DNA of 64,000 nt from Rhodococcus ruber NBRC 15591 (GTDB lineage: Bacteria > Actinomycetota > Actinomycetes > Mycobacteriales > Mycobacteriaceae): NCBI RefSeq assembly GCF_001894945.1, contig NZ_BCXE01000020.1, positions 62,001 to 126,000 on the forward strand, written 5' to 3'. The number at the start of each line of letters is the position of its first letter. The first letter of the stretch is position 1. A program made the translations under genes and the position numbers. Under the pieces are notes generated by a model. It was not told where the DNA came from. It saw nothing but the letters and a program-made list of their open reading frames with translations, and ran no database searches. Below, piece after piece: positions 15,651 through 57,423 of the stretch.

Positions 15651-16664
15651 GTGCCGTCGACCCGAATCCCGAGATTGCTTGCCGCAGCCGGTCTCGCCCT
15701 CACATTCGTCCTGACCGCGTGCTCGTCGGGCGGCGACGACCCCTCCGAGGCATCCGGCTCGGGCGCGGGCGCGTTCCCCGTGACGATCGAGCACGCCCTC
15801 GGCAGCACCACGATCGAGACCGAACCCGAACGGGTGGTCACGTGGGGCTTCGGGAGCACCGACGCCGCGCTCGCGCTCGGGGTCGTCCCCGTCGCCATGC
15901 CGGCACAGTCGTACGGCGGTGACGAGCAGGGTGTCCTGCCGTGGATCGGAGACGAGCTCACCGAACTCGGTGCCGAGACACCGACGATCCTGCAGAACGA
16001 CGGCACGGACGTGCCGGTCGAGCAGATCGCGGCGGCCCGCCCGGACGTCATCCTCGCCAACTACTCCGGGCTCACCCAGGATCAGTACGACACCCTCAGC
16101 CGGATCGCTCCCACCGTCGCGTACCCCGGTGAGCCGTGGGCCACCCCGTGGCGTGACGTCGTCTCCACGGTCGGGCAGGCGCTGGGCCGGTCCGCCGACG
16201 CCGAGCGCCTGATCGCCGACACCGAGGCGATCATCGCCGACAAGGCCGCCGCGTACCCGCAGTTGCAGGGCCGCACCGTCGCCGCGGTATGGGACACGGG
16301 CGACACGTTCTACGTCTACAAGCCCGCCGATTCGCGGGTGGAGTTCCTCACCGACCTCGGTCTCGTCAGCGCCCCGAGCGTCACCGAACTGAGCACGGAC
16401 GAGTCCAGCTTCTACTTCACGATGAGCTTCGAGGAGGTCGGCAAGCTCACCAGCGACATCCTCCTCTCCTACGCCGACGACGCCGCAGCGCAGGAACGCA
16501 CCCTCGCCCAGCCGTGGGCGCAGACCATGCAGCAGGTCACCGAAGGCAGGGTGGCGACGGTGAACGGCACCGAGCTGATCGCCGCGGTGTCGCCCCCCAC
16601 GGTCCTGTCCCTGACCTGGGGGATAGATGCCTACCTGGAGGCGCTCGCCGCCGCGGTGAAGTAG
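15651..16664 (+). CDS. Iron-siderophore ABC transporter substrate-binding lipoprotein
   Basis: 337 residues, GTG start preceded by GAAGGGA. The signal peptide ends in a lipobox (FVLTAC, Cys24). The mature part is a FecB/FepB-like periplasmic-binding fold with the usual landmarks: RVVTWGFGSTDAALALGVVPVA near the N-lobe, PDVILANYSGLTQDQYDTLSRIAPTV mid-protein, and a conserved C-lobe. It would capture ferric siderophore outside the membrane and pass it to an ABC permease. No permease or ATPase gene is adjacent, so it is a stand-alone binding protein. The iron box upstream supports iron-starvation induction. The siderophore is unknown. Confidence 0.88.
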   Translation: MPSTRIPRLLAAAGLALTFVLTACSSGGDDPSEASGSGAGAFPVTIEHALGSTTIETEPERVVTWGFGSTDAALALGVVPVAMPAQSYGGDEQGVLPWIGDELTELGAETPTILQNDGTDVPVEQIAAARPDVILANYSGLTQDQYDTLSRIAPTVAYPGEPWATPWRDVVSTVGQALGRSADAERLIADTEAIIADKAAAYPQLQGRTVAAVWDTGDTFYVYKPADSRVEFLTDLGLVSAPSVTELSTDESSFYFTMSFEEVGKLTSDILLSYADDAAAQERTLAQPWAQTMQQVTEGRVATVNGTELIAAVSPPTVLSLTWGIDAYLEALAAAVK

Positions 16665-16808
16665 CGCCGGCTCGCCGCGGTGCAGTAGGGGCGGCTCGCC
16701 GCCGTGCAGTAGGGGCGGCTCGCCGCCGTGCAGTAGGGGCGGCTCGCCGCGGTGCAGTAGGGGCGGCTCGCCGCGGTGCAGTAGGGGCGGCTCGCCGCCG
16801 TGCAGTAG
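16665..16808 (+). repeat. Six 24-bp tandem repeats, each ending in TAG
   Basis: Six exact-length units (16665-16688, 16689-16712, 16713-16736, 16737-16760, 16761-16784, 16785-16808) directly abut the stop codon of the binding-protein gene. The core is GGCGGCTCGCC followed by GC(C/G)GTGCAGTAG. Each unit keeps the gene's reading frame and ends in a stop, and each can form a small GGCGG-CTCG-CCGCC-like hairpin. The last codons of the gene itself (GTGAAGTAG) resemble the unit end. The array occupies the whole gap before the convergent phosphatase gene. Confidence 0.9.
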
Positions 16809-16821
16809 CGGCCGTTCCCGG

Positions 16822-17336: not shown

Positions 17337-18218
17337 TCACCGGCGGCCGACGCGTGCCACCGCCCGCACCTCGTCGTCGACCGTGAACCACAGGGTCAGC
17401 GAGTCGGCGTCGTGCCGGGCGCGCAGGACGAGCGTGTCGCCGGCGACAACCGGTCGAAGATGCTCGATCGCCGCACGATACGGGGCCGTCTGCAACTCCG
17501 GCCGTCCGGCGAGGTGCTCCTCGATGCCGTGCCAGTAGGCGGCGTTGTTGACGTGGTCGAACGGGTCGATGTCGGTGGCCCGCAGCGGGAAGTGCGTGCC
17601 GGCGTCGGCGTCTGCGGACGGCGTGGGCGGCAACCATGCCCGCCACCGCAGACGGGTGTCCGCGGCGTGACGAGCCATGTGTTCCCAGAGCCGGTCGCTG
17701 ATCCGAGCCGGCATGCCGTTGGTGGGCCCGATGTTGATCCAGAACGCCGACGTGTCCATCGCGGCGCCGCCGGTGCCCTCGAACCGCACACGGACGTTGG
17801 CCCATCGCGTGGACAGGGCGTCACACCATCGGCGCAGTTCGAGCTGTTCCCGGAAGCGGGCCGGCCGGTGCACGTCGACGACGGTGCGGCGCACGATCCA
17901 CAGCGGATCGGTGTCGGTGGCGTCGACGGCGTCGAGGTTGTCGGTGCCGATGTCCTGCAGGTAACGGGCCACGCCGTCGAGCCGGAGCCGTTCCCGGCTG
18001 TCGACGTCGCCGGTGCGCACCGTGCGCGTGGACCGGAACGCGTCGTCGGGCGGGGGAGCGGTGGCGAGGGGCTGCGCCCAGGCGTCCTCGGGTACGTGCT
18101 TTCCCGGTGCCGCTGCCGCGGCGGTATCCGTAGGTGCCGCTGCCGCGGCGGTGTCTGCGGTTGCCGCTGCCGCGGCGGTGTCTGCGGTTGTCGCTCCCGC
18201 GGCGGTATCCGAACCCAT
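17337..18218 (-). CDS. Acyl-ACP thioesterase-like double hot-dog protein
   Basis: 293 residues from ATG at 18218, which has an AGGGGG ribosome site; the open frame extends to 18374 but the extension looks non-coding. An N-terminal Ala/Thr repeat tail (about residues 1-40) precedes two hot-dog folds. The first contains GDVDSRERLRLDGVARYLQD and the second DIDPFDHVNNAAYWHGIEE, the usual acyl-ACP thioesterase pattern with Asp/His/Asn in the second half. It probably hydrolyses acyl thioesters in lipid metabolism. Chain-length specificity cannot be read. Confidence 0.82.
   Translation of the reverse strand: MGSDTAAGATTADTAAAAATADTAAAAAPTDTAAAAAPGKHVPEDAWAQPLATAPPPDDAFRSTRTVRTGDVDSRERLRLDGVARYLQDIGTDNLDAVDATDTDPLWIVRRTVVDVHRPARFREQLELRRWCDALSTRWANVRVRFEGTGGAAMDTSAFWINIGPTNGMPARISDRLWEHMARHAADTRLRWRAWLPPTPSADADAGTHFPLRATDIDPFDHVNNAAYWHGIEEHLAGRPELQTAPYRAAIEHLRPVVAGDTLVLRARHDADSLTLWFTVDDEVRAVARVGRR
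18106..18213 (-). repeat. Four 27-bp in-frame repeats at the thioesterase N-terminus
   Basis: Four consecutive 27-bp units (18106-18132, 18133-18159, 18160-18186, 18187-18213) encode nine-residue segments of the form DTAAAAAxx. The outer units are the most diverged. They encode nearly the whole N-terminal tail and begin two codons after the start. Confidence 0.85.
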
Positions 18219-31946: not shown

Positions 31947-33091
31947 GCATCTGGGACACCCCCGAACGCCGCGAGCTGCGCTCGACGGTCCACTCCTTCG
32001 TCCGGCGCGAGATCCTGCCGCATCTCGCCGCGTGGGAGCGCGACGGTGAACTGCCCCGCGAACTGCACAAGAAGGCCGCCGCTCTCGGGCTGCTCGGCGC
32101 CGGATTCCCCGAGGCCGTCGGCGGTTCCGGGGGCGACGCGGCGGACACCCTCACCGTGTGCGAGGCCTTCCACGAGGCCGGCGCCTCCGGCGGCGCCTTC
32201 GCCTCCCTGTTCACCTGCGGCATCGCCCTGCCACACCTCGTCGCCGCCGGCGACGAAGCGCAGATCGGCAAGTGGGTTGCCCCGACCCTCGCGGGTGAGC
32301 TCGTCGGCTCCCTCGCGATCACCGAACCCGGCGGCGGCTCCGACGTCGGGCACCTGACCACCACCGCCGTCCGCGACGGCGATCACTACATCGTCGACGG
32401 CGCCAAGACCTACATCACCTCCGGCTGCCGCGCCGATTTCGTCGTCACCGCTGTGCGCACCGGCGGCCCCGGTGCCGCCGGTGTCTCGCTGCTCGTGATC
32501 GAAAAGGGCACACCGGGTTTCACCGTCTCGCGCAAGCTGGACAAGATGGGCTGGCGTGCCTCCGACACTGCGGAACTGTCGTTCGCCGGTGTGCGCGTGC
32601 CGGTCTCGAATCTCGTCGGAGCCGAGAACAGCGGCTTCGCGCAGATCGCGCAGGCGTTCGTCGCCGAGCGGATCGCCCTCGCCGCCCAGGCCTACTCGAG
32701 CGCGCAGCGGTGCCTGGATCTGACCGTGTCCTGGTGCCGGGACCGCGAGACGTTCGGCCGGCCCCTGATCTCCCGGCAGTCGGTACAGCGCACCCTCGCC
32801 GAGATGGCACGGCGCATCGACGTCGCGCGGGTGTACGGCCGGCGGGTCGTCGAGCGATCCCTCGTCGGTGACGGCGACCTCGTCGCCGAGGTGTGCTTCG
32901 CCAAGAACACCGCCGTCGAGGCCGGGGAGTGGGTCGCACACCAGGCCGTGCAGCTCTTCGGCGGCCTCGGCTACATGGCCGAGTCCGAGGTCGAACGACA
33001 GTACCGCGACATGCGCATCCTCGGCATCGGCGGCGGCACCACCGAGATCCTCACCGAACTTGCCGCGAAACGATTGGGGTACACCGCGTGA
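31943..33091 (+). CDS. fadE13: Acyl-CoA dehydrogenase, FadE13-like
   Basis: 382 residues. Full acyl-CoA dehydrogenase with N-terminal helical domain, FAD/substrate beta-domain (SLAITEPGGGSDVGHLTTTA, then TYITSGCRADFVVTAVRTGG) and C-terminal helices ending VAHQAVQLFGGLGYMAESEVERQYRDMRILGIGGGTTEI. The ACAD substrate-contact region near residue 365 is conserved. It would oxidise a branched acyl-CoA to the enoyl form ahead of carboxylation. Overlaps both neighbours by 4 bp. The symbol follows gene order in M. tuberculosis. Confidence 0.9.
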   Translation: MSIWDTPERRELRSTVHSFVRREILPHLAAWERDGELPRELHKKAAALGLLGAGFPEAVGGSGGDAADTLTVCEAFHEAGASGGAFASLFTCGIALPHLVAAGDEAQIGKWVAPTLAGELVGSLAITEPGGGSDVGHLTTTAVRDGDHYIVDGAKTYITSGCRADFVVTAVRTGGPGAAGVSLLVIEKGTPGFTVSRKLDKMGWRASDTAELSFAGVRVPVSNLVGAENSGFAQIAQAFVAERIALAAQAYSSAQRCLDLTVSWCRDRETFGRPLISRQSVQRTLAEMARRIDVARVYGRRVVERSLVGDGDLVAEVCFAKNTAVEAGEWVAHQAVQLFGGLGYMAESEVERQYRDMRILGIGGGTTEILTELAAKRLGYTA

Positions 33092-34686
33092 GCATCCTGC
33101 AGACGACCGTCGACCCGTCCTCGGCGGAGTACGCCGCCGCGGCCGAGGCGATGGCCGCCCAGCTGGCAGAGCTCGAAGCCGAACACGCCAAGGCCCTCGC
33201 CGGCGGCGGGGAGAAGTACGTCCGACGGCACCACGAACGCGGCAAGCTGCTGCCACGCGAACGGATCGAACTGCTCCTCGACCCCGATTCGCCGTTCCTC
33301 GAGCTGTCCCCGCTCGCCGCCTGGGGCACCGAGTTCCCGGTCGGCGGCAGCACCGTCACCGGAATCGGCGTCGTCGAGGGCGTCGAATGCCTGATCGTCG
33401 CCAACGACCCCACCGTCCGCGGCGGCACGAGCAACCCGTGGACGCTGCGAAAGGGATTCCGCGCCAACGACATCGCGATGCAGAACCGGCTGCCGGTCAT
33501 CTCCCTCGTCGAGTCGGGCGGCGCCGACCTCCCCACCCAGAAGGAGGTGTTCATCCCCGGCGGGCGCATGTTCCGCGACCTGACACAGCTGTCCGCCGCC
33601 GGGATCCCGACCATTGCCCTGGTGTTCGGCAATTCCACCGCGGGTGGCGCCTACATCCCGGGCATGTCGGACCACGTGGTGATGATCGAGAAGCGGTCGA
33701 AGGTGTTCCTCGCCGGGCCGCCCCTGGTGAAGATGGCCACGGGCGAGGAATCCGACGACGAATCCCTCGGCGGCGCGGAAATGCACGCCCGCACCTCCGG
33801 CCTGGCCGACTACTACGCGGTCGACGAACCCGACGCGATCCGGATCGGCCGGGGCATCGTCCGTCGTCTGAACTGGCGCAAGCAGGGCCCCGAACCCCAC
33901 CCGGAGGTACGCGAGCCCCGCCACGATCCCGAGGAACTGCTCGGCATCGTGCCCGCCGACCTCAAGGTGCCGTTCGACCCGCGCGAGGTGATCGCCCGCA
34001 TCGTCGACGACTCCGACTTCGACGAGTTCAAGCCGCTGTACGGGTCGTCGCTCGTCACCGGCTGGGCCCGTCTGCACGGCTACCCGGTGGGAATCCTCGC
34101 CAACGCCCGCGGCGTGCTGTTCAGCGAGGAATCCCAGAAGGCCACCCAGTTCATCCAGCTCGCCAACCGTGCAAACACGCCACTGCTGTTCCTGCACAAC
34201 ACCACCGGCTACATGGTCGGCCGCGAGTACGAGGAACGCGGCATGATCAAGCACGGTTCGATGATGATCAACGCCGTCTCCAATTCGACGGTGCCGCACA
34301 TCTCGATCCTGCTCGGCGCCTCCTACGGGGCCGGCCACTACGGGATGTGCGGCCGCGCCTTCGACCCGCGGTTCCTGTTCGCCTGGCCCAGCGCCAAGTC
34401 CGCGGTGATGGGCGGCGCACAACTCGCGGGCGTCATCTCCATCGTCGGACGGGCCGCTGCCGAGGCGCGCGGCCAGGCGTTCGACGAGGCCGCCGACGAG
34501 GCGATGCGCGCGGCGATCGAGAACCAGATCGAGGCGGAGTCGCTGCCGATGTTCCTGTCCGGCCGGCTCTACGACGACGGGGTCATCGACCCGCGCGACA
34601 CCCGCACCGTGGTGGGGATGTGCCTGTCGGCCATCGCCAACGCGCCGATCGAGGGCACCGACAGCTTCGGTGTCTTCCGGATGTGA
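33088..34686 (+). CDS. accD2: Acyl-CoA carboxylase beta subunit (carboxyltransferase), AccD2-like
   Basis: 532 residues. Carboxyltransferase N- and C-domains are intact: KLLPRERIELLLDPDSPFLEL, GGSTVTGIGVVEGVECLIVANDPTVRGG and the acyl-CoA pocket GNSTAGGAYIPGMSDHVVM. The C-domain has ANARGVLFSEESQKATQFIQLA and GASYGAGHYGMCGRAFDPRF. It transfers carboxyl from biotin on the alpha subunit to an acyl-CoA. Close in plan to geranyl- or 3-methylcrotonyl-CoA carboxylases. It pairs with the alpha subunit 7 bp downstream; the true substrate is not determined. Confidence 0.92.
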   Translation: MSILQTTVDPSSAEYAAAAEAMAAQLAELEAEHAKALAGGGEKYVRRHHERGKLLPRERIELLLDPDSPFLELSPLAAWGTEFPVGGSTVTGIGVVEGVECLIVANDPTVRGGTSNPWTLRKGFRANDIAMQNRLPVISLVESGGADLPTQKEVFIPGGRMFRDLTQLSAAGIPTIALVFGNSTAGGAYIPGMSDHVVMIEKRSKVFLAGPPLVKMATGEESDDESLGGAEMHARTSGLADYYAVDEPDAIRIGRGIVRRLNWRKQGPEPHPEVREPRHDPEELLGIVPADLKVPFDPREVIARIVDDSDFDEFKPLYGSSLVTGWARLHGYPVGILANARGVLFSEESQKATQFIQLANRANTPLLFLHNTTGYMVGREYEERGMIKHGSMMINAVSNSTVPHISILLGASYGAGHYGMCGRAFDPRFLFAWPSAKSAVMGGAQLAGVISIVGRAAAEARGQAFDEAADEAMRAAIENQIEAESLPMFLSGRLYDDGVIDPRDTRTVVGMCLSAIANAPIEGTDSFGVFRM

Positions 34687-34693
34687 GGCAGCA

Positions 34694-36874
34694 GTGAACC
34701 GTTCCGACACCGTCACCACCGTGCTCGTCGCCAATCGCGGCGAGATCGCCCGCCGGGTGTTCGCCTCCTGCCGGCGGGCCGGCCTCGGCACCGTCGCCGT
34801 GTTCTCCGACGCGGACGCCGACAGCCCGCACGTCACCGAGGCCGACGTCGCGGTGCACCTGCCCGGCACTGCCCCCGCCGACACCTACCTCCGCGGCGAG
34901 GCGATCATCGCGGCTGCCCGCACGGCGGGGGCCGACGCGATCCACCCGGGATACGGGTTCCTCTCGGAGAATGCCGAATTCGCGAGGGCGGTCCTCGACG
35001 CGGGACTGACCTGGATCGGGCCGGACCCGGACTCCATCGCCCGGATGGGTTCGAAGGTCGAGGCCAAGAAGATCATGGCCGACGCCGGCGTGCCGGTGCT
35101 GGCCGAGCTGGACCCGGCCGCGGTGACCGAGGCCGACCTGCCCGTGCTGATCAAGGCCTCCGCCGGGGGCGGCGGCCGCGGCATGCGGGTCGTCCGCGAC
35201 CTGGCCGAACTGTCCGACCAGCTCGCCGCGGCCCGACGTGAGGCACAGTCCGCATTCGGCGACCCGACGGTGTTCTGCGAGCGCTACCTCGAAACGGGGC
35301 GGCACATCGAAGTGCAGGTCCTCGCGGACCGGCACGGGACCGTGTGGGCGGTGGGGGAGCGCGAATGCTCGATCCAGCGGCGGCATCAGAAGGTGGTCGA
35401 GGAGGCCCCGTCGCCGCTCGTCGACGCCACCCCCGGCATGCGGGAGCGGCTGTTCGAGGCGGCCCGGCGCGCCGCGCACGCCATCGACTACGAGGGCGCC
35501 GGGACGGTCGAGTTCCTCGCGACCGGGGCGAGCGAAGCGACGGGAAATGTCGCCGGGGCGAGCGAAGCGACGGGAAATGTCGCCGGGGCGAGCGAAGCGA
35601 CGGGAAATGTCGCCGGGGCGAGCGAAGCGACGGGAAATGTCGCCGGGGCGAGCGAAGCGACGGGAAATGTCGCCGGGGCGAGCGAAGCGACGGGAAATGT
35701 CACTGCCGGAGGTGAGTTCTTCTTCCTCGAGATGAACACCCGGCTGCAGGTCGAGCACCCGGTCACCGAGTGCACCACCGGGCTCGACCTCGTCGACCTG
35801 CAGCTCCAGATCGCTGCCGGCGGCCGTCTCGATCCCGAACCCCCTCCGGCGAGCGGACATTCGATCGAGGTGCGGCTCTACGCGGAGGACCCCGCCGAGG
35901 ACTGGCGGCCGCAGTCCGGCACGGTGCACCGCCTCGCCCTGCCCGGTCGCGTCCCCGAGTTCGAGGTCCTGCCCGGGCCCGGGCTGCGTCTGGACGCCGG
36001 CGTCGAGGACGGCTCGGTGGTGGGCGTGCACTACGACCCGATGCTCGCCAAGGTGATCGCCTACGCCCCGACCCGGGACCGCGCGGCCCGCATGCTCGCG
36101 ACGTCGCTCACCCGTGCCGAGGTGCACGGCCTGCGCACCAACCGGGACCTGCTCGTGAACGTGCTCCGGCATCCCGAGTTCCTGGCCGGCAACACCGACA
36201 CCGCCTTCTTCGACACACACGGGCTCGCCACGCTCGCCGCGCCGCTCGCCGACGCCGCCGCCGAGTCGCTGTCCGCGCTCGCCGCGGCCCTGGCCGACGC
36301 CGCCGCTCGTCGTGCGACGGCGACGGTCGGCCGCGGCCTGCCGAGCGGCTGGCGCAACCTGCCGTCGCAGCCACAGGTCAAGCGGTACGACGGCGACCAC
36401 GGTGAACACGAGGTGCGGTACCGGCTCACCCGGCACGGCCTGGTCGCCGACGGCCATCCGGGCATCGTCCTCGTCGCACACACCGAGCGCCGGGTGGTGC
36501 TCGCGATCGACGGCGCGCAGCGGCAGTTCCACGTCGCGCGCTACGGCGACACGGTGCACGTGGACTCCTCGCTCGGTCCGGTGCGGTTGCGAGCGATCCC
36601 GCGGTTCGTCGAACCCTCGGCCCATGTCGCCGCGGGGTCGCTGCTCGCGCCGATGCCCGGGTCGGTGATCCGGATCGGGGCAACGGTCGGCGACGCGGTC
36701 GACGCGGGGCAACCGGTCCTGTGGCTCGAGGCGATGAAGATGGAACACATCGTCAAGGCCCCCGCCGCGGGCGTGCTCACCGAACTGCCCGTGGCCGTCG
36801 GCACCCAGGTCGAACTGGGCGCCGTGCTGGCCGTCGTCACCCCCACCGAGTCCACCGACACCCAGGAGAAGTGA
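34694..36874 (+). CDS. accA2: Acyl-CoA carboxylase alpha subunit (biotin carboxylase-BCCP), with repeat insertion
   Basis: 726 residues from GTG 34694. Biotin carboxylase domain with ATP-grasp glycine loop KASAGGGGRGMRVV and catalytic strands GAGTVEFLA and FLEMNTRLQVEHPVTE; C-terminal BCCP domain with biotin lysine Lys682 in EAMKMEHI. Between the two catalytic strands lies a 60-residue tandem insertion (residues 277-336, unit TGASEATGNV/A). Without it the length is 666, close to the 667 of M. tuberculosis AccA2. Homologues have only a short turn at this place. The insert keeps frame and both strands' residues, so activity may be retained. It overlaps fadE12 by one base. Confidence 0.92.
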   Translation: MNRSDTVTTVLVANRGEIARRVFASCRRAGLGTVAVFSDADADSPHVTEADVAVHLPGTAPADTYLRGEAIIAAARTAGADAIHPGYGFLSENAEFARAVLDAGLTWIGPDPDSIARMGSKVEAKKIMADAGVPVLAELDPAAVTEADLPVLIKASAGGGGRGMRVVRDLAELSDQLAAARREAQSAFGDPTVFCERYLETGRHIEVQVLADRHGTVWAVGERECSIQRRHQKVVEEAPSPLVDATPGMRERLFEAARRAAHAIDYEGAGTVEFLATGASEATGNVAGASEATGNVAGASEATGNVAGASEATGNVAGASEATGNVAGASEATGNVTAGGEFFFLEMNTRLQVEHPVTECTTGLDLVDLQLQIAAGGRLDPEPPPASGHSIEVRLYAEDPAEDWRPQSGTVHRLALPGRVPEFEVLPGPGLRLDAGVEDGSVVGVHYDPMLAKVIAYAPTRDRAARMLATSLTRAEVHGLRTNRDLLVNVLRHPEFLAGNTDTAFFDTHGLATLAAPLADAAAESLSALAAALADAAARRATATVGRGLPSGWRNLPSQPQVKRYDGDHGEHEVRYRLTRHGLVADGHPGIVLVAHTERRVVLAIDGAQRQFHVARYGDTVHVDSSLGPVRLRAIPRFVEPSAHVAAGSLLAPMPGSVIRIGATVGDAVDAGQPVLWLEAMKMEHIVKAPAAGVLTELPVAVGTQVELGAVLAVVTPTESTDTQEK
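35523..35701 (+). repeat. Six identical 30-bp in-frame repeats inside accA2
   Basis: The 29-bp core beginning CCGGGGCGAGCGAAGCGACG and ending GGAAATGTC recurs at 35523, 35553, 35583, 35613, 35643 and 35673 with no substitutions. Only the spacer base and the outer edges differ. Each unit encodes ten residues (TGASEATGNV or AGASEATGNV). Identity of all six copies, including synonymous positions, indicates very recent expansion or active homogenisation. The run is also open on the opposite strand. Confidence 0.97.
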
Positions 36875-38034
36875 TGAGCGTCATCGAAACCGACGAGCAG
36901 AAGCAGCTGCGGGCTGCGGTCGCGGGCCTGGCCAAGCGCTACAACTACACCGACTACGTGCTGCCGAAGGCCCGCAAGGGCGAACCGCTGACCGAGCTGT
37001 GGCGGGAGGCCGCCGGGCTCGGATTCCTGGGCGTGAACCTGCCGGAGGAATTCGGCGGCGGCGGGGCCGGCATCTACGAACTCGCCCTGGTGCAGGAGGA
37101 ACTCGCCGCGCAGGGCTGCGGGCTGCTGCTGGTGGTCGTCTCGCCCGCCATCTGCGGCACCATCATCGCCAAGTTCGGCACCGACGAGCAGAAGCAGCGC
37201 TGGCTGCCCGGGCTCGCCGACGGCTCGAAGATCATGGCGTTCGGCATCACCGAGCCCGATGCCGGGTCCAATTCGCACCAGATCACCACCGTCGCGCGCC
37301 GCGACGGCGAGGACTGGATCCTCCACGGCAGCAAGATCTACATCTCCGGCGTGGACCAGGCCGACGCGGTGCTCGTCGTCGCCCGCACCGAGGACGCGAA
37401 GAGCGGGAAGCTGCGGCCGGCGCTGTTCATCGTCCCGACCGATGCCGAGAACTTCGTCAAGACGCCGATGGAGATGGACATCGTCGAGCCGGACCATCAG
37501 TTCACCCTGTTCCTCGACGACGTGCGACTGCCGGCGGACGCGCTGGTGGGGGAGCCGGACGCGGCGCTGATGCAGTTGTTCGCGGGCCTGAATCCGGAGC
37601 GGATCCTCGGCGCGGCGATGGCCGTCGGGATGGGCCGCTACGCCCTGGACGCCGCGGTGCGGTACGCCAACGAACGCACCGTGTGGAAGTCGCCGATCGG
37701 GGCTCACCAGGGCATCGCCCACCCGCTCGCCCAGTGCAAGATCGAGCTCGAGCTGGCGAAGCTGATGATGCAGAAGGCGGCGGTGCTGTACGACAGCGGC
37801 GACGACTTCGGTGCTGCCGAGGCCGCGAACATGGCCAAGTACGCCGCGGCCGAGGCCAGCATCAAGTCGCTCGACCAGGCGATCCAGACCCACGGCGGGG
37901 GCGGGCTCACCCGGGAGTACGGGCTGGCCGCGATGCTCGGCGCGGCGCGCATCGCACGGGTGGCGCCGGTGAGCCGGGAGATGATCCTCAACTTCGTGTC
38001 CCAGCACTCGCTGGGTCTGCCCCGGTCGTACTGA
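36874..38034 (+). CDS. fadE12: Acyl-CoA dehydrogenase, FadE12-like
   Basis: 386 residues, ATG 36874. ACAD signatures include FGITEPDAGSNSHQITTVA and SKIYISGVDQADAVLVVART, with C-terminal IQTHGGGGLTREYGLAAMLGAARIARVAPVSREMILNFVSQHSLGL. It is the second acyl-CoA dehydrogenase of the operon and probably acts on a different chain length or at the step after hydration and cleavage. Overlaps accA2 by one base and precedes echA7 by 11 bp. Confidence 0.9.
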   Translation: MSVIETDEQKQLRAAVAGLAKRYNYTDYVLPKARKGEPLTELWREAAGLGFLGVNLPEEFGGGGAGIYELALVQEELAAQGCGLLLVVVSPAICGTIIAKFGTDEQKQRWLPGLADGSKIMAFGITEPDAGSNSHQITTVARRDGEDWILHGSKIYISGVDQADAVLVVARTEDAKSGKLRPALFIVPTDAENFVKTPMEMDIVEPDHQFTLFLDDVRLPADALVGEPDAALMQLFAGLNPERILGAAMAVGMGRYALDAAVRYANERTVWKSPIGAHQGIAHPLAQCKIELELAKLMMQKAAVLYDSGDDFGAAEAANMAKYAAAEASIKSLDQAIQTHGGGGLTREYGLAAMLGAARIARVAPVSREMILNFVSQHSLGLPRSY

Positions 38035-44837: not shown

Positions 44838-46028
44838 GTGGCGAAGGCGAAGTTCGAGCGGACCAAGCCGCACGTGAACATCGGCACCATCGGTCACGTC
44901 GACCACGGCAAGACCACCACCACGGCTGCCATCACCAAGGTGCTCGCCGACAAGTACCCGGACCTGAACGAGAGCTTCGCGTTCGACCAGATCGACAAGG
45001 CTCCGGAGGAGAAGGCTCGTGGTATCACGATCAACATCTCCCACGTCGAGTACCAGACCGAGAAGCGCCACTACGCGCACGTCGACGCCCCGGGTCACGC
45101 CGACTACATCAAGAACATGATCACCGGTGCGGCTCAGATGGACGGCGCGATCCTGGTCGTGGCCGCCACCGACGGCCCGATGCCGCAGACTCGCGAGCAC
45201 GTGCTGCTCGCCCGTCAGGTCGGTGTGCCCTACATCCTGGTCGCCCTGAACAAGGCCGACATGGTCGACGACGAGGAGATCCTCGAGCTCGTCGAGATGG
45301 AGGTCCGCGAGCTGCTGGCCGCCCAGGAGTTCGACGAGAACGCCCCGGTCATCCCGATCTCGGCGCTCAAGGCGCTCGAGGGCGACGAGAAGTGGGTCAA
45401 GTCCATCGAGGACCTGATGGACGCCGTCGACGAGTCCATCCCGGACCCGGTCCGTGAGACCGACAAGCCGTTCCTCATGCCCGTCGAGGACGTCTTCACC
45501 ATCACCGGTCGTGGCACGGTCGTCACCGGCCGCATCGAGCGCGGTGTCATCAACGTGAACGAGGAGGTCGAGATCGTCGGTATCCGCCCGACCTCGACCA
45601 AGACCACGGTCACCGGCATCGAGATGTTCCGCAAGCTGCTCGACCAGGGCCAGGCCGGCGACAACGTCGGTCTGCTGGTCCGCGGCATCAAGCGCGAGGA
45701 CGTCGAGCGCGGCCAGGTCGTCGTGAAGCCGGGCACCACCACTCCGCACACGGAGTTCGAGGGCCAGGCGTACATCCTCAACAAGGAGGAGGGCGGCCGC
45801 CACACGCCGTTCTTCAACAACTACCGTCCGCAGTTCTACTTCCGTACCACGGACGTGACGGGCGTTGTGACCCTTCCCGAGGGCACCGAGATGGTCATGC
45901 CGGGCGACAACACCGAGATGTCGGTCGTCCTGATCCAGCCGGTCGCCATGGACGAGGGCCTGCGCTTCGCGATCCGCGAGGGTGGCCGCACCGTCGGCGC
46001 CGGTCGCGTCACGAAGATCATCAAGTAG
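44838..46028 (+). CDS. tuf: Translation elongation factor Tu
   Basis: 396 residues, GTG 44838 with CAGGAGGA upstream. GTPase motifs [18 protein letters not shown] and NKADM are intact, and the domain 2-3 C-terminus ends GRVTKIIK. Delivers aminoacyl-tRNA to the ribosome. The last codons and stop are duplicated downstream. A CATACT element about 35 bp upstream could be a tuf-specific -10, unproven. Confidence 0.99.
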
Positions 46029-46078
46029 GCACCGCCTACGCGATCATCAAGTAGGCACCGCCTACGCGATCATCAAGT
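46017..46078 (+). repeat. 26-bp tandem duplication of the tuf 3' end with hairpins
   Basis: Two full 26-bp copies (46017-46042, 46043-46068) and a partial third (46069-46078) begin ATCATCAAG, the last three codons of tuf. Each full copy then reads TAG and a 6-bp hairpin GTAGGC-ACC-GCCTAC. The first copy is the real gene end; the others are exact duplicates in the intergenic region. Confidence 0.95.
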
Positions 46079-56331: not shown

Positions 56332-57423
56332 ATGACCAGCTTCACCAGCGGACCGGAACTCGCCGACGCGCTGCGCCGCCACGACTACATCGCCGACGAC
56401 GAGTTCGCGGTCGTCGTCCACCTCGCCACCGCGCTCGAGCGGCCGCTGCTGCTCGAGGGCCCGGCCGGCGTCGGCAAGACCGAACTGGCCAAGGCGCTCG
56501 CCGCCGTCGGCGGACGCAAGCTGGTACGGCTGCAGTGCTACGAGGGTCTCGACGACAGCCGGGCGCTGTACGAGTGGGACTACGCCAAGCAACTGCTGCA
56601 CGTGCAGATGCTGCGGGACCGCATCGGCGAACAGCTCGCCGCCTACCCCGACGTCGCCGACGCGTCCCGCTTCCTCGCCGCGCAGGACTTCGGCCTGTAC
56701 TCCGAGACGTTCCTGGCCGTGCGTCCCCTGCTCGAGGCGATCCTGTCTCCGGAGCCGGTGGTGCTCCTCGTCGACGAGGTGGACCGCACCGAGGAATCCA
56801 TGGAGGCGTTGCTGCTCGAGGTCCTCGCCGAGCGGCAGGTCACCATTCCCGAGGTGGGTACCTTCACGGCCCGGTCCGCGCCGTGGGTGATCCTGACCTC
56901 CAACGACACCCGCGAACTCTCGCCCGCCCTCAAGCGCCGCTGCCTGCACTACCACGTCGGCTACCCCACCCCCGAGCGCGAACGCGAGATCGTCACCGCC
57001 CGGGCCCCCGAGGTCGACACCGTGACCGCCGGCGAGGTCGTGGACCTGGCCCGCACCCTGCGGGAGCTGCCGTTGCGCAAGAGCCCGTCCATCTCGGAGG
57101 TCATCGACGCCGCGCGCGCCGCGACCGTGCTGCGGCGCGGCGGCGGCGACCACACGATCCGGGACATCCTGCTCGCCGCGCTGCTCAAGTACACCGGCGA
57201 CGCCGACCTGGTCCGCGCCCGGCTCGGCGGTGACGCCCCACCAGCTGCACCGACGACCACCGCACCGACGACCACCGCACCGACGACCACCGCACCGACG
57301 ACCGCCGAACCTGCGGGGGAGCGACCCGAGCGGGCCACGGTCGCCTCCCGGCCGGCCAACACCACCACCGCGGTGTTCCGCGGGCGCGGCGGCGGCGGTG
57401 TCGGCATCGGCGCGCGGCGGTGA
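56332..57423 (+). CDS. MoxR-family AAA+ ATPase
   Basis: 363 residues, ATG 56332. Walker A GPAGVGKTE (43-51), Walker B VVLLVDEVDR (143-152), sensor LTSNDTRELSPALKRRC. C-terminal tail carries a Thr/Pro/Ala repeat. MoxR ATPases act with VWA proteins as chaperones for metal- or cofactor-containing enzymes; next gene is a VWA protein and the preceding one is Mno, so maturation of the dehydrogenase is the obvious hypothesis. Separated from mno by 85 bp. Confidence 0.9.
   Translation: MTSFTSGPELADALRRHDYIADDEFAVVVHLATALERPLLLEGPAGVGKTELAKALAAVGGRKLVRLQCYEGLDDSRALYEWDYAKQLLHVQMLRDRIGEQLAAYPDVADASRFLAAQDFGLYSETFLAVRPLLEAILSPEPVVLLVDEVDRTEESMEALLLEVLAERQVTIPEVGTFTARSAPWVILTSNDTRELSPALKRRCLHYHVGYPTPEREREIVTARAPEVDTVTAGEVVDLARTLRELPLRKSPSISEVIDAARAATVLRRGGGDHTIRDILLAALLKYTGDADLVRARLGGDAPPAAPTTTAPTTTAPTTTAPTTAEPAGERPERATVASRPANTTTAVFRGRGGGGVGIGARR
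57247..57306 (+). repeat. Four 15-bp in-frame repeats in the MoxR tail
   Basis: GCACCGACGACCACC repeats at 57247, 57262 and 57277, with a fourth copy at 57292 that has one change. They encode APTTT four times in the C-terminal linker and do not touch the ATPase core. Confidence 0.85.

Follow-up and report, generated by a model that had tools for sequence, protein, structure and literature searches.

The array and its host gene

The window, the whole 64,000-nucleotide stretch of Rhodococcus ruber NBRC 15591 DNA analysed here (C20:62001–126000 of a 56-contig draft assembly), contains a forward-strand gene (34694..36874) for an accA2-like biotin carboxylase/BCCP alpha subunit. The protein has 726 residues from the GTG at 34694, or 734 when the open reading frame (34670–36874) is counted from its first GTG. 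It contains the Pfam domains Biotin_carb_N, CPSase_L_D2, Biotin_carb_C, BT_MCC_alpha, and Biotin_lipoyl, and its top PDB match is methylcrotonyl-CoA carboxylase alpha (3u9s). The partner carboxyltransferase subunit lies upstream (33058..34686, + strand; Pfam Carboxyl_trans, 1.1e-147; start codon provisional), and an acyl-CoA dehydrogenase with Acyl-CoA_dh N, M, and C domains follows immediately downstream (36874..38034, + strand). The surrounding cluster comprises an AtuA-family gene, two acyl-CoA dehydrogenases, the carboxyltransferase, an enoyl-CoA hydratase, and a TetR regulator; we take it to resemble accA2–accD2 of M. tuberculosis, and the gene name accA2 is that of the initial annotation. 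Among the matches listed, the nearest named homologue of the host protein was from Nocardia neocaledoniensis (80% over the N-terminal part searched, with the closest records possibly omitted).

Within this gene, TRF detected a tandem array of 6.0 copies of a 30-bp unit with 100% matches and zero indels (35523..35701, + strand), which translation places in frame and which adds GASEATGNVA per unit. The array measures 179 bp, the sixth copy being one base short and ending in TGTCA as opposed to TGTCG inside the array. A pattern search placed the first copy of a 19-bp core, GGGCGAGCGNAGCGACGGG, at 35526..35544 (+ strand), with further copies at 30-bp steps, the last ending at 35694; in genome coordinates the cores span C20:97526–97694. 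Each copy includes a GCGNAGC motif, a candidate GNA-loop DNA mini-hairpin, which in the first copy reads GCGAAGC (35532..35538, + strand) and recurs every 30 bp. At the right array edge (35697..35722, + strand), where the final unit ends TGTCACTGCC, TCAC is kept as against TCGCC in internal units, as also judged from the sister species G015; the final unit thus closes with TGTCAC and the internal linkers read TGTCGCC. An exact search for the 13-mer GCGAGCGAAGCGA found 6 occurrences in the 5.33-Mb assembly, all within the accA2 array.

The initial annotation had placed the insert between two strands of the active-site hairpin, and alignment bore this out. Host residues 7–276 and 339–713 aligned by phmmer to the best PDB match, leaving the insert as a gap between the EFL and LEMNTRLQVEHP strands, and in the best PDB alignment it occupies the hairpin turn between the EFL and FFFLEMNTRLQVEHP strands, presumably the strands that bear the catalytic residues of biotin carboxylase (glutamates, an asparagine, and an arginine). 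Subtracting 60 residues from 726 gives the length of 666 that had been stated for the protein without its insert. An AlphaFold2 model of the natural protein built with 23 aligned homologues had a mean pLDDT of 85, with values below 50 for residues 282–337 and intact strands at 268–276 and 342–348; a floppy loop beside the active site, and not a folded domain, is therefore to be expected, the modelled insert being disordered between intact strands.

Orthologues of accA2 were present in 16/18 genomes of the genus; the other two (G007 and G011) gave only matches of at most 54–55% identity, taken as paralogues, and the earlier description of an essential-looking enzyme was not supported. Only the window genome (G000, 6 units) and its sister species (G015, 5 units) carry the insert, so it is not a fixed feature of the genus; the remaining 14/16 orthologues have a short, variable turn. 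Homologues had been described as having a short turn, and this held further afield, with a long turn in 0/40 distant homologues, the 40 being those of 80 whose turn region was parsed by script, a procedure in which very long inserts would fail to parse. At the threshold used, the insert-free orthologue L095 matched 106/121 genomes of a family sample. Most of these matches were continuous, while a few were broken elsewhere or covered only part of the query.

One of the five G015 units has an altered core. These units read GAATGTCACC with N = A, G, G, G, and A, the last unit having further changes, whereas all internal units of G000 read AAATGTCGCC with N = A. The earlier view of the array as young or homogenised agrees with units that differ between the two genomes and hardly at all within G000, and the sequences are most simply explained by homogenisation in the G000 lineage once it had separated from that of G015. 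Each species was represented by one genome, and the difference of 6 versus 5 units is one between sister species. Outside the insert, dN/dS between G000 and G015 was about 0.21 (0.11 for the part preceding the insert, 0.27 for the part following it), somewhat above the 0.145–0.165 of three insert-free pairs. By this measure the rest of the host gene is under purifying selection and the host gene is kept, with constraint on insert-bearing accA2 perhaps slightly relaxed.

Four other tandem repeats were noted in the window: a perfect 26-bp duplication (46016–46078, 2.4 copies) that spans a stop codon, where the reading by eye is one we take to resemble the C-terminus of EF-Tu; a 24-bp array with a repeated TAG (16649–16812, 6.8 copies), by eye behind the end of an open reading frame and so a further case of tandem expansion close to where a gene ends; and in-frame coding repeats in two other open reading frames, APTTT (15 bp, 57247–57311) and a DTAAAAAPT-like unit (27 bp, 18106–18211).

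A dispersed 30-bp repeat family

The accA2 unit is a member of a dispersed 30-bp repeat family, overlooked in the initial annotation, whose core GGGCGAGCGNAGCGACGGG occurs across many genes and genera and whose consensus is about CCG-GGGCGAGCGNAGCGACGGG-RAATGTCACC. The core was found in 13/18 genus genomes and was absent in exact form from the other five; a backward-pattern control gave 0 in 18/18. The core count in G000 was 14, and the genome-wide check for the unit located three exact clusters beyond the accA2 array (C1:39930, C33:194956, and C20:22944). Because these three sit at or near gene ends by eye, accA2 is the only clear intragenic site in that genome. Across a sample of the order, the core was present in 31/397 genomes and 10/85 genera (5 control hits in total), with the highest counts in G401 (51) and G104 (47).

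We read 95 clusters, drawn from 53 genus regions, the 2 accA2 loci, and 40 places spread over 8 genomes of other genera; all genus places were read, and outside the genus a subset of the counted places. A redundancy filter that was probably too strict reduced the 95 clusters to 65. The repeat occurs singly or in tandem, in both orientations, and in several frames. Over the 65 loci, the core base N was A at 35, G at 16, C at 14, and T at 0, and 17/18 arrays had a single N state; inspection by eye showed a T at this base twice, once in L019, in a degenerate unit at the edge, and once in a viral contig (L290). Spacings at these loci were 30 in 20/31 cases and divisible by 3 in 27/31.

Plasmid and phage collections gave zero matches to the repeat. 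Four viral contigs contained the exact core with flanks unlike those of the family, and two viral contigs (L288 and L289) have in common an extended motif around the core, TAGGGCGAGCGNAGCGACGGGCARTCTTC, that differs from the family flanks. In a phylum-wide search, counts of the 12-mer GCGAGCGNAGCGA were by eye mostly near the backward control, with a few genomes well above it; the distant genomes with counts well over control were G555 (89 versus 15), G510, G489, G500, G461, and G432, and in these the 12-mer possibly marks other, independent repeat families that have the GNA motif in common with this one.

Hosts of the repeat include enoyl-CoA hydratase (ECH), PurH, PheT, NuoL, PPK, MurB, and other carboxylases. 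In acc3, a second carboxylase gene, a 10-residue insert was found in 1/17 orthologues (G015) and the other 16 were empty; the site reads GACTCCGG-GGCGAGCGCAGCGACGGGGGGTGTCACCGG-TGCC in G015 versus GAGTCCGG-TGCC in G000, so that the two differ by exactly 30 bp, and CCGG stands at each edge. For ECH, 5 of 18 orthologues had the full 10-residue unit, 3 (including G000) had shortened in-frame remains, and 10 were empty. Comparison with empty orthologues demonstrates clean 30-bp insertions at these two genes besides accA2, and the ECH insertion is, as read from the alignments, an old one that is decaying by in-frame deletion. In acc2, the unit is present in G006 and a shorter form in G008, which we read as a 15-bp deletion of the unit. 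Compared with 8e9g, the G097 NuoL carries exactly 10 additional residues, and the PurH, PPK, PheT, and MurB hosts have extra residues of varying length at the unit relative to solved structures. In 20 hosts picked for strong coding signal, 19 had a Pfam family; the unit lay within the best-scoring domain stretch in 9 and between or outside domains, or in a protein with no family, in 11.

On the gene tree the ECH insert has a patchy distribution that requires at least 3 changes (4 on the two-carboxylase tree; 17 taxa), and loss or exchange must therefore also be assumed. The ECH site was considered as an insertion hotspot and this idea was dropped: by eye, the inserts of separate clades agree in their non-consensus tail bases, a sign of common origin with loss or exchange.

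Two further biotin-dependent carboxylase genes have the repeat at other positions (L115/L271 and L156/L254, in G015 and G006). Matching repeat sites occur across species in several large open reading frames that, judged by eye, are NRPS-like (L129, L140, and L151; L122, L163, L157, and L153).

Origin, spread, and persistence of the insert

We conclude that the accA2 array is very probably one locus of a dispersed 30-bp Mycobacteriales repeat, present as a tolerated in-frame insertion that expanded. In the common ancestor of G000 and G015, a unit would have come to lie in the tolerant accA2 hairpin turn and multiplied there by slippage or unequal recombination, and the array would persist by adding only a disordered, small-residue, in-frame loop. 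Across the family, spacings were divisible by 3 in 13/13 cases for arrays in confidently coding sequence and 14/18 for other arrays; together with the frame bias given below, we read this as tolerance filtering, in which the survivors are those frames and lengths that spare the protein. Set against this reading are the gene-end position of the other three exact clusters of G000, the patchy ECH insert, the dN/dS of accA2, somewhat over that of the three insert-free pairs, the single genome per species, and the fact that none of the machinery examined could be tied to the repeat, with a weak target-site duplication signal. Flanking direct repeats were in slight excess around repeat copies (mean longest shared flank string 4.86 versus 4.29, with 0/300 shuffles reaching 4.86), with few clear cases and some of them at neighbouring degenerate units.

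A Y1/RAYT transposase was rejected as the spreading machinery. Among 19 genomes tested, PF01797 was over the cut-off in 3 (G000, G001, and G008), where a Y1 transposase may be linked to the repeat, but not in the many-copy genomes G104, G401, G289, and G015.

How the repeat moves bears on a more speculative idea, which we regard as possible but rather doubtful: that this 30-bp parasitic repeat spreads without a dedicated transposase by way of a single-strand GNA-triloop mini-hairpin (GC-GNA-GC). GNA or GNNA loops on at least two G–C pairs are reported to form mini-hairpins, with a Tm of 78 °C for GCGAAGC and strong nuclease resistance (PMC4686876). Heat- and nuclease-resistant single-stranded copies might then be captured at breaks or stalled forks, and a frame-friendly length and sequence would permit residence in housekeeping genes. 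The motif would also explain why the one highly variable base of the core is the loop base N of GCGNAGC: one-change variants of the A version differed at N at 31 loci and at the other 18 positions combined at 21 (first position 6, eleventh 4), in a tally made by eye from 139 matches versus 18 control matches, with one-variant arrays counted once. Other causes of a single variable site are possible, however. In addition, T at N is permitted by the GNA rule yet occurs at 0/65 loci. By nearest-neighbour DNA energies, the unit folded no better than shuffles (seven oligos, z of −0.2 to 1.4), and a stable hairpin was not predicted for the A, G, or C versions, the T version being the sole 14-mer given one, although these standard energies perhaps do not model the special GNA loop.

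Alternatively, the repeat could be a DNA-level signal under selection, protein-binding or replication-linked, with the peptide as a by-product. We consider this improbable. The core is letter-perfect at many loci while N varies (31 loci versus 21), and at the matching sites L129, L140, and L151 the core is retained although N and the flanking sequence are not. The repeat is, however, low in number and unevenly distributed, with 5/18 genus genomes lacking the exact core; the clean insertions speak against evolution in situ, the ECH copies decay freely, core included, and searching by exact pattern favours intact cores.

Less probable again, in our view, is an adaptive role for the insert as a peptide linker through which carboxylase assembly or activity is tuned and whose length is set by the number of units. 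The turn adjoins the active site, the copy number is 6 versus 5 in sister species, and one frame is favoured. By a GC3 rule, 28/65 loci were confidently coding; their frames were GASNATG at 13, GERSDG at 5, PRRNARP at 4, and the other three at 2 each, so that GASNATG was over-represented (13/28 versus 1/6 expected, p = 0.0002). The sense orientation was used at 20/28 coding loci (p = 0.036), and a looser, unfiltered count of 55 genus clusters gave GASNATG 20, PRRNARP 12, GERSDG 10, other frames 12, and none 1. The unit also occurs in unrelated proteins and in other frames, GERSDG and PRRNARP among them, the modelled insert is disordered, and 14/16 genus orthologues do without it, all of which argues against a linker role.

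An assembly artefact or a wrong copy number is very improbable: perfect repeats are easily miscounted in a draft genome, but a separate genome, that of the sister species, has 5 non-identical units at the same site. The count of 6 in the window is that of the draft assembly. Least credible is the phase-like switch raised in the initial annotation, in which enzyme activity would depend on the number of units. Copy-number change is favoured by perfect units, but since 30 is divisible by 3 the reading frame survives any gain or loss of units, and on/off switching of this kind is thereby excluded; both the 13/13 spacings of coding arrays and the dN/dS of about 0.21 against G015 stand against it.

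Significance and comparison with known systems

The tolerated in-frame insertion that we favour would make this a dispersed repeat of very small size, able to enter housekeeping and catalytic genes and to persist in them. It provides naturally occurring forms of the same enzymes that have or lack the unit, offers a route for proteins to gain disordered loops of about ten residues, and raises the question of what copies 30 bp to new sites, no transposase being tied to the repeat. Among the matches listed in a literature search, neither the repeat sequence nor a 30-bp coding repeat in Mycobacteriales was described; strings from the repeat appeared in 2 papers whose titles and abstracts look unrelated.

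MIRUs are intergenic units of about 46–100 bp that bridge stop and start codons. The repeat is like them in consisting of short dispersed units in the same order, with tandem arrays of variable copy number, and the clusters L125 and L127 begin at a TGA read by eye as an upstream stop codon. The unit here is 30 bp, is intragenic at many loci, and lies inside a Pfam domain in 9/20 hosts scanned, a distinction drawn from the description of MIRUs. In L127 (2056–2105), the two units that directly follow the upstream TGA may, judged by eye, extend the next open reading frame at its N-terminus, with which they are in frame.

REPs are dispersed, extragenic, palindromic units of 20–40 bp that depend on a Y1 transposase (RAYT). 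The 30-bp units are dispersed and of similar size but are intragenic at many loci, and PF01797 was found in only 3/19 genomes, which were not those with the highest copy numbers. MITEs have terminal inverted repeats and target-site duplications; DNA folds of the 30-bp unit gave no stable hairpin, and its flanks had the slight excess of direct repeats given above. The in-frame, homogenised tandem units, whose copy number differs between species, resemble bacterial intragenic VNTRs or minisatellites; unlike these, the unit recurs at many unrelated loci and is therefore also a dispersed element.

A parallel comes from the Rickettsia palindromic elements, described as interspersed repeats that lie in frame in unrelated genes, metabolic ones included, and are kept in the protein (PMC10969869). 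The 30-bp repeat is likewise inserted in frame in unrelated protein genes, as seen from empty sites at accA2, acc3, and ECH and from the PDB alignment of NuoL. The Rickettsia elements, about 100–150 bp as a class and about 150 bp in that review (PMC10969869), are palindromic by name, whereas the repeat described here is 30 bp, forms tandem arrays, folds no better than shuffles, and belongs to Mycobacteriales, the nearest named homologue listed for its accA2 host being from Nocardia. Interspersed repeats that are tolerated within genes are a kind already known from Rickettsia (PMC10969869).
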